Virus record (IMG/VR): IMGVR_UViG_3300025138_000489
Coordinates: 1 to 20,522 of that record
DNA from: a virus
Direction: 5' to 3' (one strand)
DNA length: 20,522 bases
Both the position numbers and the translations under genes were made by a program. Within the stretch, counting starts at the first letter, position 1. Every line of letters begins with the position of its first letter. Below the pieces are notes generated by a model that worked only from the letters and a program-made list of their open reading frames with translations, was not told the DNA's origin and did not search any database. This document shows positions 2,249 through 9,783 of the stretch, piece after piece.

Positions 2249-2322
2249 TGGAGCGGGTGGATGGTAATGCACCACCTTCTATTGGTTGGAAACCTATTGT
2301 AATACTTTTATACTACACCCGC
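2249..2322 (-). tRNA. tRNA-Gly (anticodon UCC), CCA encoded, partly degenerate
   Basis: Folding the minus strand gives a tRNA cloverleaf of 74 nt. The acceptor is 7 perfect pairs (GCGGGTG with CACCCGC), then discriminator T and encoded CCA. U73 and the GCGGG start are hallmarks of bacterial tRNA-Gly, and the sequence resembles E. coli tRNA-Gly(UCC) as I remember it, including the D-arm GTATAA...TATTAC. The anticodon loop is TTTCCAA, with anticodon TCC at 2290-2288. The T stem is GGTGG/CCATC with one G-U pair. Odd points: an A-A mismatch in the middle of the anticodon stem, no GG in the D loop, and T loop TGCATTA instead of a TTC-type loop. It lies 5 nt after the gene at 2328 and 15 nt before rnh. 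It reads GGA codons, frequent in AT-rich phages; function depends on tolerance of these changes. Confidence 0.85.
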
Positions 2323-2327
2323 TTATA

Positions 2328-2723
2328 TTAACTTATATCCTCTTCTTCATTATTAAATAATTCACTTATTTGCTTTAAGTCTATATCAGTATACCACTTG
2401 TTATCGTCTTTGTCAAGGGATAATTGACATAAAGTATCCATCATAGAAATCATGGGATGTTGGAAACCCATATCCCTATACAATATTGCTTTAATAGTTT
2501 CACTTAGAAAACTCAAATCGGCAATGAACCTTTCGTTTCGTATATCTACATCATTCTGTTCCATATTATGTATCATTGATACCATAAGTCCTTCAACCAT
2601 GTCATCAGCGAACTTTAAATCTTCTTGTAATTTTAATGCATCCATATCAACAATTAAAGGGGCTTGTAGTCCATTATATATTTTTGGGAATTGTACAACA
2701 TTGTCCTTCTTTTTGTCATCCAT
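2328..2723 (-). CDS. Conserved marine myovirus protein, unknown function
   Basis: This 131-aa acidic, soluble protein starts MDDKKKDNVVQFPKIYNG and ends in a run of acidic residues (NNEEEDIS). The region SETIKAILYRDMGFQHPM resembles a conserved protein found near RNase H in T4-like cyanophages; I know no function for it. Its start overlaps the end of the upstream gene by 8 nt, so the two are coupled. A consensus-like promoter (TTGACA-N17-TATACT) lies inside its 3' half and points at the tRNA and rnh. Confidence 0.75.
   Translation of the reverse strand: MDDKKKDNVVQFPKIYNGLQAPLIVDMDALKLQEDLKFADDMVEGLMVSMIHNMEQNDVDIRNERFIADLSFLSETIKAILYRDMGFQHPMISMMDTLCQLSLDKDDNKWYTDIDLKQISELFNNEEEDIS
2388..2416 (-). 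promoter_or_regulatory. Intragenic sigma70-like promoter upstream of tRNA-Gly and rnh
   Basis: Minus strand: -35 TTGACA (2411-2416), 17-bp spacer, -10 TATACT (2388-2393). It lies within the coding sequence of the gene at 2328-2723. The predicted start near 2381 is about 60 nt before the tRNA 5' end at 2322. The match is 6/6 for -35 and 5/6 for -10. Confidence 0.6.
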
Positions 2724-3186
2724 CTACCATATCCTTTTCCCATACCATTCCTATATCTGGGTAGAAAATACCTACAGATCTTTTTGGTGTACCGTCTGGA
2801 TAGTATGCCATTGTTGTGCATCTCCACTGAACCTTATTACTCATATGTTCACCGTAGTAATTGTCAACCCAATCACCATTTCGTAGATAGGTTTCGCAAT
2901 GTCTAATATAAGCAGATATTCCTGCTGCTTCTGCTTCAGCACCTTTTACTTTTCGGCGTATATTTCCTTTAGCAACACTGAGCAATTCTTTTTGAGTTTT
3001 AATCCACTTCAATACATTCTTTCTGCTGAATGTATCTTCATCTGGTTTGTCAAGAACAGTTTGATGTACATTAGCATACTTTGGAGGATTTTCTAATAAT
3101 CTTTTCTCTCTAGCTTTTGCTAACCGTTCAACTGCTGCCGCCTTCTGTTCTGGCGACATTGGTTTTCTTGTCTTTTTGATTGGCAT
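2716..3186 (-). CDS. Conserved T4-like phage protein, Lys/Arg-rich N-terminus
   Basis: The 156-aa protein opens with a basic helix (MPIKKTRKPMSPEQKAAAVE and onwards, rich in K, R and A) and ends with RSVGIFYPDIGMVWEKD. I recognise the pattern from a conserved hypothetical protein of T4-like cyanophages; no role is known to me. The basic N-terminus suggests nucleic-acid contact, which is inference. A good ribosome-binding site (AGAGGA) precedes the ATG. It lies between the bS21 gene and the 131-aa protein, in the operon that ends with rnh. Confidence 0.75.
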   Translation of the reverse strand: MPIKKTRKPMSPEQKAAAVERLAKAREKRLLENPPKYANVHQTVLDKPDEDTFSRKNVLKWIKTQKELLSVAKGNIRRKVKGAEAEAAGISAYIRHCETYLRNGDWVDNYYGEHMSNKVQWRCTTMAYYPDGTPKRSVGIFYPDIGMVWEKDMVDG

Positions 3187-3220: not shown

Positions 3221-3487
3221 TTAGTAACCAAATTCTTCTTTACGTTTTTCCATATTACGCTTGTATCTTCTGGTGGCTGCTGCTTTGTCTTTACGCTTTT
3301 TCTCACCTTTAGATGTAAAGAATGTTCTTTCCCTTAACTCTTGAAAGAATCCATCTCTCATTAGTTTCTTTTTCAATACACGCAATGCACCATTCACATC
3401 GTTATTTCTAACGGTGATGGTAGTTCCCTTGCCGTCAGCAAGGGTTTCACCACGTTTTTTAAAGTTTTTCTTTTTATTATATGACAT
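3221..3487 (-). CDS. rpsU: Phage-encoded ribosomal protein bS21 homologue
   Basis: The 88-aa product matches the bS21 pattern: a short beta-like start (TTITVRNNDVNGALRVLKKK), then LRERTFFTSKGEKKR, then a very basic C-terminal helix (KAAATRRYKRN) ending in a Tyr. Bacterial bS21 is about 70 aa; the extra residues are a basic N-terminal extension (MSYNKKKNFKKRGE). bS21 sits on the 30S platform near the anti-Shine-Dalgarno end of 16S rRNA and helps mRNA binding at initiation. Homologues are known in aquatic phages, including the pelagiphage HTVC008M. A strong AGAGGAG site precedes the ATG. A role in steering host ribosomes toward phage mRNA is inference. The C-terminal Arg/Lys helix is intact. 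Confidence 0.85.
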   Translation of the reverse strand: MSYNKKKNFKKRGETLADGKGTTITVRNNDVNGALRVLKKKLMRDGFFQELRERTFFTSKGEKKRKDKAAATRRYKRNMEKRKEEFGY

Positions 3488-3496
3488 AACTCTCCT

Positions 3497-4168
3497 CTAT
3501 TGTATGTTCTTTTCTATATCTAGGGTGTTCTGCACGATGGCATCATCCTTGATATCCTGCTCTTTCACAGACGAATCAAGTTCTTCCCATGCTTTAGTAG
3601 ACCTAATTTTAGATAGTAACATTTTGTCTTTCTTTAGACGGTTCATTAAAATCTTAGATGCTTCAGCGTCAGAATATTCTAGTAGAACATATACACGATA
3701 TTGTGTACCATTCACGACTACTTCACTTTCTTTAACCTTATACCCAGCAACATCAACATCAGCAATGATGTTCTTTGTAGCAGTCTGTACTTCATTTAAG
3801 ATAGATGCATCTGCATCTGTAGAACCAATCTTAGAAACAAAAGATTTAGTTTGACTTCTAACTCGGCCATTAATACGGTCTGCAAGAGTAGTCTTAGCAT
3901 TCAGAATTGCAATGTCATTCGACAATTGTAAGTCTGGTGTTGCTGACGTTCCGACTGCATAAATCGCTGAGTCATCTTCTGGTGGTTTTGTAAACCACTT
4001 TGGCATTTCAGCAATCTGCTGAGTTACCAATTTATTTTTGTATTCATAAGTTTCCTTATTAACACCACTGCCTGGCGGTGGGGTATCCATCACCTCTACA
4101 GTTTTCATACTTGAGCAAGCACCCAATAGTGATGCCATCGCACCGACTAGTATCACGTTTTTAATCAT
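3497..4168 (-). CDS. LPP20-family-like lipoprotein
   Basis: The 223-aa protein has a lipoprotein signal peptide with lipobox LGAC (Cys18). The mature part contains PKWFTKPPEDDSAIYAVGTS followed by an Ala-rich segment (LNAKTTLADRINGRV), the layout of LPP20-type bacterial lipoproteins. It should be exported and lipid-anchored in the envelope of a Gram-negative host. It has an AAGGAG ribosome-binding site about 10 nt before the ATG and follows a 45-aa membrane protein and a second lipoprotein in the same operon. Such phage-borne envelope proteins can serve in superinfection exclusion or envelope remodelling; that is inference. Confidence 0.75.
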   Translation of the reverse strand: MIKNVILVGAMASLLGACSSMKTVEVMDTPPPGSGVNKETYEYKNKLVTQQIAEMPKWFTKPPEDDSAIYAVGTSATPDLQLSNDIAILNAKTTLADRINGRVRSQTKSFVSKIGSTDADASILNEVQTATKNIIADVDVAGYKVKESEVVVNGTQYRVYVLLEYSDAEASKILMNRLKKDKMLLSKIRSTKAWEELDSSVKEQDIKDDAIVQNTLDIEKNIQ

Positions 4169-8276: not shown

Positions 8277-9527
8277 TTATGCAACCTCATCATATGCATC
8301 ATCCCAAGTTCCTACAAGACCAGCAACCTCATATTCGGTTACTCTGCCTTCAAAGAAATTAGTATGGTCTGCACCATTTAGTATCCACTCCAACCAAGGA
8401 AGTGGGTTCTCTTTAACTTTAAAGTTTGTTTTAAGACCAAGTTGTAACAACCTTCTATCAGTTATATATCTAACATATTGTTTTACTTCAGCAGCAGAAA
8501 GGCCTTCCATATCACCAATTTTGTAAGCAAGGTCTGTAAACTTATCTTCTAGTTTAACTGACTGTCTTGCCATCTCATATATATCATTCTTAAATTGGTC
8601 ATCAACAATCTTAGGATGTTCAATACAATATTGTCTGAATAGTTTTGCATCACCCTCAACGTGAATTGACTCATCACGAATTGACCATTCAACAACCTTA
8701 CCCATACCTTTCATCTTACCGAACCTTTGAAAGTTCAACAACATGACAAACGATGCAAAGAGAGCAACACCCTCATTGAATACAGTTTTAGCAAGTGCAA
8801 GTCCTAGACCACGAGCAGTGTTAACATTAGAATCCATCATAAAATCAATCTTATCTGCCATCTCTTGATATTCTAGAAAGGCATGATACTCAGCGTCTGA
8901 TAGTCCAAGTGTCTCATTCAACAATGCATATGCACGTTGATGAATACCTTCTCTACTTGCAAATGAGCCTAACATATTTCTTACTTCATTATTCTTAAAC
9001 TTGGGAATGAATTGGTCAAAATAGTTCTGTCCAACTGCTACGTCTGATTGTGTGAATAGTCTAAGGATATTAGTAATATATTCTTTCTCTACATCTGTAA
9101 CCTTACCACCCTTCCAATCAGAAACATCTTCTGACAGGTCAATCTCATCTTCAATCCAATGAACTTTTTCATGTCTAGTTGTAATTTCAACTGCCCATGC
9201 ATAGTGAAATGGTTTATATGTTTCACTGAACTTTAACAGTCCACCACCACCTTTTTTACGAAGCAACTCTGCACCGTGTTTCATAAGGTCATCATAACTA
9301 CCAATTCTAGTTCCATCAACAAAAATCTGTGGTACAGAATTGACTCTACGAACTGTAGCGTCTTGACCAACTGTTTCGGTAATTCCATTGATAGACTGAT
9401 AGAACGCTAGTCTTTCTTCTTCATTATCCATTAATTCTTCAGTGTAAGTAAACCCATGTTCACTTAACCACTTTTTTGCCATTCCACAGAATGGGCAATC
9501 ACTTTTAGTTATTACTTTAATATCCAT
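8277..9527 (-). CDS. nrdB: Glutaredoxin-NrdB fusion: ribonucleotide reductase beta subunit
   Basis: The protein joins a glutaredoxin domain (residues about 1-92; redox motif CPFC at 11-14, SVPQIFVDG cis-Pro loop) to a class I RNR small subunit (about 100-416). The R2 diiron ligands are all visible: D162, E193, H196, E252, E286 and H289, with the radical Tyr200 in EGIHQRAY. It makes the tyrosyl radical used by NrdA; the attached glutaredoxin can recycle NrdA's disulphide directly. I choose ATG at 9527 because GAGGA sits 5 nt before it; an in-frame ATG at 9560 (11 residues longer) has no such site. It lies downstream of nrdA with one small ORF between. Separate glutaredoxin genes are usual in T4 (nrdC), so the fusion is a variation. 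Confidence 0.93.
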   Translation of the reverse strand: MDIKVITKSDCPFCGMAKKWLSEHGFTYTEELMDNEEERLAFYQSINGITETVGQDATVRRVNSVPQIFVDGTRIGSYDDLMKHGAELLRKKGGGGLLKFSETYKPFHYAWAVEITTRHEKVHWIEDEIDLSEDVSDWKGGKVTDVEKEYITNILRLFTQSDVAVGQNYFDQFIPKFKNNEVRNMLGSFASREGIHQRAYALLNETLGLSDAEYHAFLEYQEMADKIDFMMDSNVNTARGLGLALAKTVFNEGVALFASFVMLLNFQRFGKMKGMGKVVEWSIRDESIHVEGDAKLFRQYCIEHPKIVDDQFKNDIYEMARQSVKLEDKFTDLAYKIGDMEGLSAAEVKQYVRYITDRRLLQLGLKTNFKVKENPLPWLEWILNGADHTNFFEGRVTEYEVAGLVGTWDDAYDEVA

Positions 9528-9549
9528 TTCATTCCTCTTTCTTTGTTCA

Positions 9550-9783
9550 TTAATAGTCATATAGTTTCGTATTCTTCGGATCGATTAAAACAGTTTTACA
9601 ATAAGCAGTCACCCTATCTTTAGGGTCTACTCTATCGGCATAACTGTAATTACCGTACTGTCTTGGTATCCTAGCGGCATAATATTGACAAGCATTAATA
9701 CCAGTAAAATACATAGGGTTAGGTTGTATCTTTCGGAACTCTCCTGTTCCGATAACAACTACTAACATAAATGCGTGTATCAT
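9550..9783 (-). CDS. 77-aa conserved protein between nrdA and nrdB
   Basis: The product begins MIHAFMLVVVIGTGEFRKIQ, with a hydrophobic start that could be a short signal or membrane segment, then YFTGINACQYYAARI and DRVTAYCKTVLIDP. I recall close relatives at this place in T4-like cyanophage genomes. Two Cys residues outside the hydrophobic stretch could form a disulphide if it is exported. Its role in or beside the RNR operon is unknown. Confidence 0.7.
   Translation of the reverse strand: MIHAFMLVVVIGTGEFRKIQPNPMYFTGINACQYYAARIPRQYGNYSYADRVDPKDRVTAYCKTVLIDPKNTKLYDY

Follow-up and report, generated by a model that had tools for sequence, protein, structure and literature searches.

Here we report that a phage of the Melnitz group carries a complete gene for ribosomal protein bS21 under purifying selection, in a fixed slot of its replication cassette occupied in roughly half of its relatives, and that the protein belongs to a well-defined clade in which the hinge between helices 2 and 3 has been substituted throughout. 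The gene lies in a 20.5-kb IMG/VR virus record (IMGVR_UViG_3300025138_000489; 20,522 nucleotides, hereafter the window). Few plausible routes are open to a phage for retuning host ribosomes, and encoding ribosomal proteins is one of them. Hundreds of aquatic phages are already known to encode bS21, which may alter message choice by the host ribosome. Earlier papers have described bS21 in phages, among them Melnitz and the pelagimyophages, noted the tRNA beside it in Melnitz and put forward the hypothesis of ribosome redirection (PMC6375957, PMC7029224, PMC9004378, PMC9723584). Our own additions are small: a signature in the hinge, a replication slot that bS21 fills optionally and a negative Shine-Dalgarno (SD) test.

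The gene is a minus-strand open reading frame at 3221-3487, with an ATG start in the ORF list, encoding a complete protein of 88 residues (MSYNKKKNFKKRGETLADGKGTTITVRNNDVNGALRVLKKKLMRDGFFQELRERTFFTSKGEKKRKDKAAATRRYKRNMEKRKEEFGY). Its product scores 52 bits against Pfam PF01165 (cut-off 27; E=5.5e-14), with residues 23-74 aligned to positions 1-53 of the 55 in the profile, and 50.2 bits against the NCBIfam equivalog model TIGR00030 (cut-off 28.95), so that both curated cut-offs are exceeded and nearly the whole model is covered. The PHROG match is phrog_21469 (“ribosomal protein S21”), the top PDB sequence matches are bS21 chains, and a family profile search of the PDB retrieved the bS21 of 8rd8 at E=6e-12. 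Where it could be estimated, dN/dS of the core was about 0.02-0.2, indicating purifying selection, which together with the profile scores rules out a chance match. These searches bear out the sequence-only reading, which had placed a complete bS21 here and made the call depend on such matches. The start codon is well supported by an AGGAG SD upstream of it (3492-3496, minus strand), whose predicted duplex energy of -9.4 kcal/mol is the strongest among the 40 genes of the window and which is directly abutted by the stop codon (3497-3499) of the upstream gene. A search of the window turned up no further bS21 gene.

An AlphaFold2 (AF2) model of the protein (mean pLDDT 75) contains the three-helix architecture of bS21, two short helices (residues 31-45 and 47-56) followed by a long basic C-terminal one (60-86). 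The extra basic N-terminus described in the sequence-only reading is likewise present: 23 residues (1-23; about 22-23 depending on where the tail is ended) with a net charge of +5 precede the V-x-V-R core (24-88), and since residues 1-19 are modelled at pLDDT <50 the tail is probably disordered. Most members of the cassette clade have 11-25 residues ahead of this core, with net charges of +3 to +6 among those measured. The tail is missing from L025-L030, L058 and some others, and because these seven named loci are close relatives that retain the same cassette, it cannot count as a constant trait. Superposing the model on bacterial bS21 was tried and set aside: Foldseek with the isolated model gave weak matches (best E 0.2), 12 of 13 to mitochondrial or plastid ribosomes, and an isolated hinged protein is poorly suited to rigid comparison.

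The helix break in the model falls at residues 57-59, and the window protein reads S-K-G where typical cellular bS21 has a Lys-Pro turn between helices 2 and 3. This turn is a conserved trait of cellular bS21 rather than a formal criterion of the family. Among 89 bacterial bS21 loci sampled from Pseudomonadota, 87 have an [FYHW]-x-K-P hinge, one reads C-E-K-P and one E-K-N (K-P in 88/89 overall), and K-P is also present in the E. coli and F. johnsoniae proteins, both verified against their PDB sequences. It occurs in none of 19 distinct cassette sequences and in none of 32 from a scan with the neighbouring ORF_A (overlapping sets); their hinges read S-K/R-G/S or close variants, and that of jumbo Vibrio phage 2.275 reads T-S-K-G-E-K. 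The substitution was probably a single old change kept by selection, and the papers we consulted do not mention it.

A second position bears on how such a protein could act. In Bacteroidia-type bS21 the aromatic Tyr54 stacks on A1534 and the anti-Shine-Dalgarno sequence is occluded (PMC9976891). The equivalent of F. johnsoniae Tyr54 in the window protein is A71 in a MAFFT alignment or R73 in an ungapped one, neither of them aromatic, and the nearest aromatic residue is Y75. Because no aromatic stands at this position, the Bacteroidia mode of hiding the anti-SD is not expected here.

The gene is surrounded by ribonucleotide reductase (RNR), primase, FEN and tail genes in a virus record, and is thus phage-encoded. 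The cassette, all on the minus strand, runs from bS21 through ORF_A (2716-3186, 156 aa, hypothetical, defined by synteny, alignment and family scan), ORF_B (2328-2723, 131 aa, hypothetical, usually next in the cassette by synteny), a tRNA and a FEN 5'-3' exonuclease/T4 RNase H-like protein (1373-2233; PF02739, PF09293, phrog_107) to a conserved DUF6433 protein (909-1373; PF20025, 147 bits), with RNR and primase further upstream, so that the replication genes the earlier reading had noticed beside bS21 are indeed there. Directly upstream of bS21 is a hypothetical protein with a lipobox-like start, judged by eye (3497-4168, minus strand; ORF list and synteny), and L025-L030 and L058 have the same neighbour where the contig reaches. 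A SprT-like gene is also among the neighbours. This setting of FEN, DUF6433, SprT-like and small genes is not the module of terminase, capsid and prohead protease in which late-module bS21 has been placed (PMC9723584). Further off in the window, at 8277-9560 (minus strand), a 427-aa gene product joins a glutaredoxin domain to the RNR small subunit; the two are annotated as separate genes in HTVC008M.

bS21 is followed directly by ORF_A in 33 IMG/VR loci (L003-L034, L058) and in Melnitz, with ORF_B, FEN and DUF6433 next as far as the contigs reach; ORF_B was undetected in L018-L023. In those same L018-L023 phages, solute-binding-protein-like genes (BMP/PnrA-like and PstS-like, by eye) lie upstream of bS21, e.g., at L020:2484-4563. 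A family scan gave at least 500 ORF_A relatives in IMG/VR, and among the best 80 of these, scoring only loci with enough flanking sequence, FEN was near ORF_A in 58/67, whereas bS21 was directly upstream in 34/69 and missing in 35/69. bS21 is therefore an optional occupant of a replication-cassette slot, and we rejected ORF_A as a dedicated bS21 partner, since it tracks FEN rather than bS21. A structure model of ORF_A gave no convincing match in the PDB. HTVC008M has ORF_B-FEN-DUF6433 with neither bS21 nor ORF_A at that place. Similar cassettes that naturally have or lack bS21 offer a comparison that we did not see used in the papers we consulted.

Transfer RNA genes recur around phage bS21. 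The window has a tRNA-Gly(UCC) with an atypical T loop (2252-2322, minus strand; Rfam RF00005, 47.4 bits), with CCA encoded at 2249-2251; it was found by Rfam and missed by ARAGORN, and its anticodon is taken from the alignment. L015-L017 also have tRNA-Gly(UCC) downstream in the same cassette. A tRNA lies directly upstream of bS21 in L002 (9886-9963), L003, L005, L011-L017 and L078 (41140-41213); in the cassette clade it is tRNA-Arg(UCU), and a different tRNA occupies the position in HTVC008M, at another locus. The adjacency thus recurs at two unrelated loci, and the gap in Melnitz is only 13 nt.

The phage itself is a marine, T4-like myophage belonging to the Melnitz group. With it, Methylophilales phage Melnitz (MZ577097, PMC9004378) shares 77% identity in the RNR large subunit and 65% in bS21 (over residues 3-88), the same order of primase, RNR, FEN and DUF6433, the same bS21-ORF_A-ORF_B-FEN-DUF6433 cassette, a basic N-tail and a hinge without Lys-Pro. 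It differs in having tRNA-Arg(UCU) directly before bS21, where the window has none, its tRNA-Gly(UCC) lying three genes downstream. The Pelagibacter phages HTVC008M and Mosig (PMC6375957, PMC7029224) are also T4-like Kyanoviridae phages of streamlined marine bacteria that encode bS21, but theirs sits at a CobS/Hsp20/sliding clamp locus (beside CobS in HTVC008M, beside an AAA-family gene in Mosig), keeps the bacterial Lys-Pro hinge and has no N-tail. A maximum-likelihood tree built from 52 bS21s over 80 columns, in which many forks are weak, places HTVC008M and Mosig with bacterial bS21s (98/85), apart from window-type sequences; for so short a protein, the tree and the different locus suggest, short of proof, separate acquisitions. 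The large Bacteroidetes-infecting phages (PMC9723584) likewise encode bS21, for which the same function has been proposed, but there the gene is in a capsid/terminase module, is probably expressed late and encodes an aromatic residue at position 54, in contrast to the replication cassette and non-aromatic equivalent here. A second phage bS21 group (L035-L057) occupies other loci, with apparent TTG starts and, in most members, a conserved REPWE-x-L-x-G N-tail.

Cellular bS21 of Alphaproteobacteria (e.g., Stella sp.) is 45-48% identical to the window protein and has the helix-1 motif VRDNDVNGALRVLKKK in common with it, but is chromosomal, lacks the N-tail and has an EKPSE hinge. Naming a host from this similarity was rejected; the closest cellular proteins, from Alphaproteobacteria at 43-48%, are too distant. 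An extra bS21 paralogue with the phage-like VRDNDVNGALRVLKKK motif occurs in Stella and in alphaproteobacterial MAGs (L065-L068, L073, L074).

The sequence-only reading had also pointed to a contrast between phage genes with strong SD sites and genes with none, to be compared between early and late genes. SD energies are those of duplexes between the 16S tail and the 20 nt before each start, with all ATGs on the same strand as controls. For the 40 window genes, whose starts are ORF calls and some probably wrong, the mean was -5.6 kcal/mol; 70% were at or below -5 (26% of control ATGs) and 15% above -2.5. In Melnitz the mean was -5.8 kcal/mol (68% vs 25% at or below -5), and in HTVC008M -5.1 kcal/mol (57% vs 20%). 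The contrast therefore holds gene by gene within the window but does not follow gene class: with structural versus other genes, split by genome region, as a proxy for late versus early, SD strength did not differ in either of these two related complete phages (Melnitz, p=0.85; HTVC008M, p=0.35). Any discrimination among messages by phage bS21 probably does not work through early/late SD strength. In L019-L023 the bS21 gene itself has no SD, and TATAAATA-CTAGT lies ahead of its ATG (e.g., L020:4982-4995), an arrangement compatible with a leaderless late message or with plain coupling to the overlapping upstream stop. A leaderless message from a T4-type late promoter, with TATAAATA directly before the ATG, was left unproven for these loci, as the motif overlaps the upstream stop codon and is not kept in L018.

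Redirection of host ribosomes to phage messages by phage bS21 is a published hypothesis (PMC6375957, PMC9723584). Beyond the presence of a selected bS21 in a phage cassette, we infer the steps that follow: a functional bS21, expressed from a replication-region operon with a strong SD, would in the replication phase swap with host bS21 or occupy empty bS21 sites where the 30S platform adjoins the 16S 3' tail, and ribosomes altered in this way would retain SD-based initiation, having no Bacteroidia-type Tyr54, and favor phage messages. We give about an even chance that the protein joins the platform and affects message choice, which makes this the leading reading. The profile matches, cassette order, dN/dS and strongest SD of the window are consistent with it, as are the in vivo uptake of a homologue, HTVC008M bS21, by E. 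coli ribosomes (PMC6375957) and the prevalence of SDs in these phages, where 57-70% of genes reach -5 kcal/mol against 20-26% of control ATGs. Late expression and a preference for phage messages were inferred by Chen et al. for the Bacteroidetes phages (PMC9723584); here the timing may be earlier, because the gene is in a replication cassette. Against this reading, such a ribosome would have no SD difference between gene classes to exploit, Foldseek gives weak matches for the isolated model, and related phages do not need bS21, as it is missing from 35 of the 69 ORF_A loci scored. In a narrower version, the cassette-clade protein, with its Ser-Lys/Arg-Gly/Ser hinge and usually a variable basic N-tail, would create a specialised 30S platform in which a changed angle between the mRNA-facing and anchoring helices alters message choice by a route other than SD strength; we hold this to be a long shot.

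E. coli ribosomes containing HTVC008M bS21 made GFP in vitro at about 5% of the control level (PMC6375957), an effect that fits poisoning as well as redirecting. Ribosomes with phage bS21 might accordingly be impaired on host messages, the protein being a take-over factor that slows host translation generally, to which its basic tail and altered hinge could contribute. We think this unlikely, since the phage itself depends on these ribosomes, the published result may simply reflect incompatibility with E. coli, and HTVC008M bS21 belongs to a different clade. Somewhat better placed, though well behind an effect on message choice, is simple supply: bS21 is loosely bound and easily lost, and a phage copy could keep 30S subunits complete after host expression stops with no preference among messages. 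Exchangeable ribosomal proteins are those enriched in viruses, as discussed previously (PMC6375957), and the strong SD, the replication-region position and the tRNA genes often directly beside phage bS21, as general translation support predicts, fit this as well; a hinge altered across the whole clade and a sequence so far from cellular bS21 (43-48% identical at best) seem beyond its needs. Least probable, and by our estimate quite improbable, is a role outside the ribosome in which this very basic protein, encoded with the FEN nuclease, binds RNA of the phage or of the cell, or else replication intermediates. One report places bS21 in a non-ribosomal ribonucleoprotein, the OLE complex (PMC12054373), but the core retained under purifying selection and the quite different neighborhoods of other phage bS21s (CobS/Hsp20 in HTVC008M and Mosig, capsid genes in Chen et al.) argue against it.

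An effect on message choice can be tested in Melnitz, which is cultivated on strain H5P1. In E. coli, RimK modifies bS6, which neighbors bS21 on the 30S platform. The Melnitz genome contains two RimK-like ATP-grasp genes (MZ577097, 141224-1131), and phages of this type may alter two platform proteins, bS21 and, via these genes, bS6.
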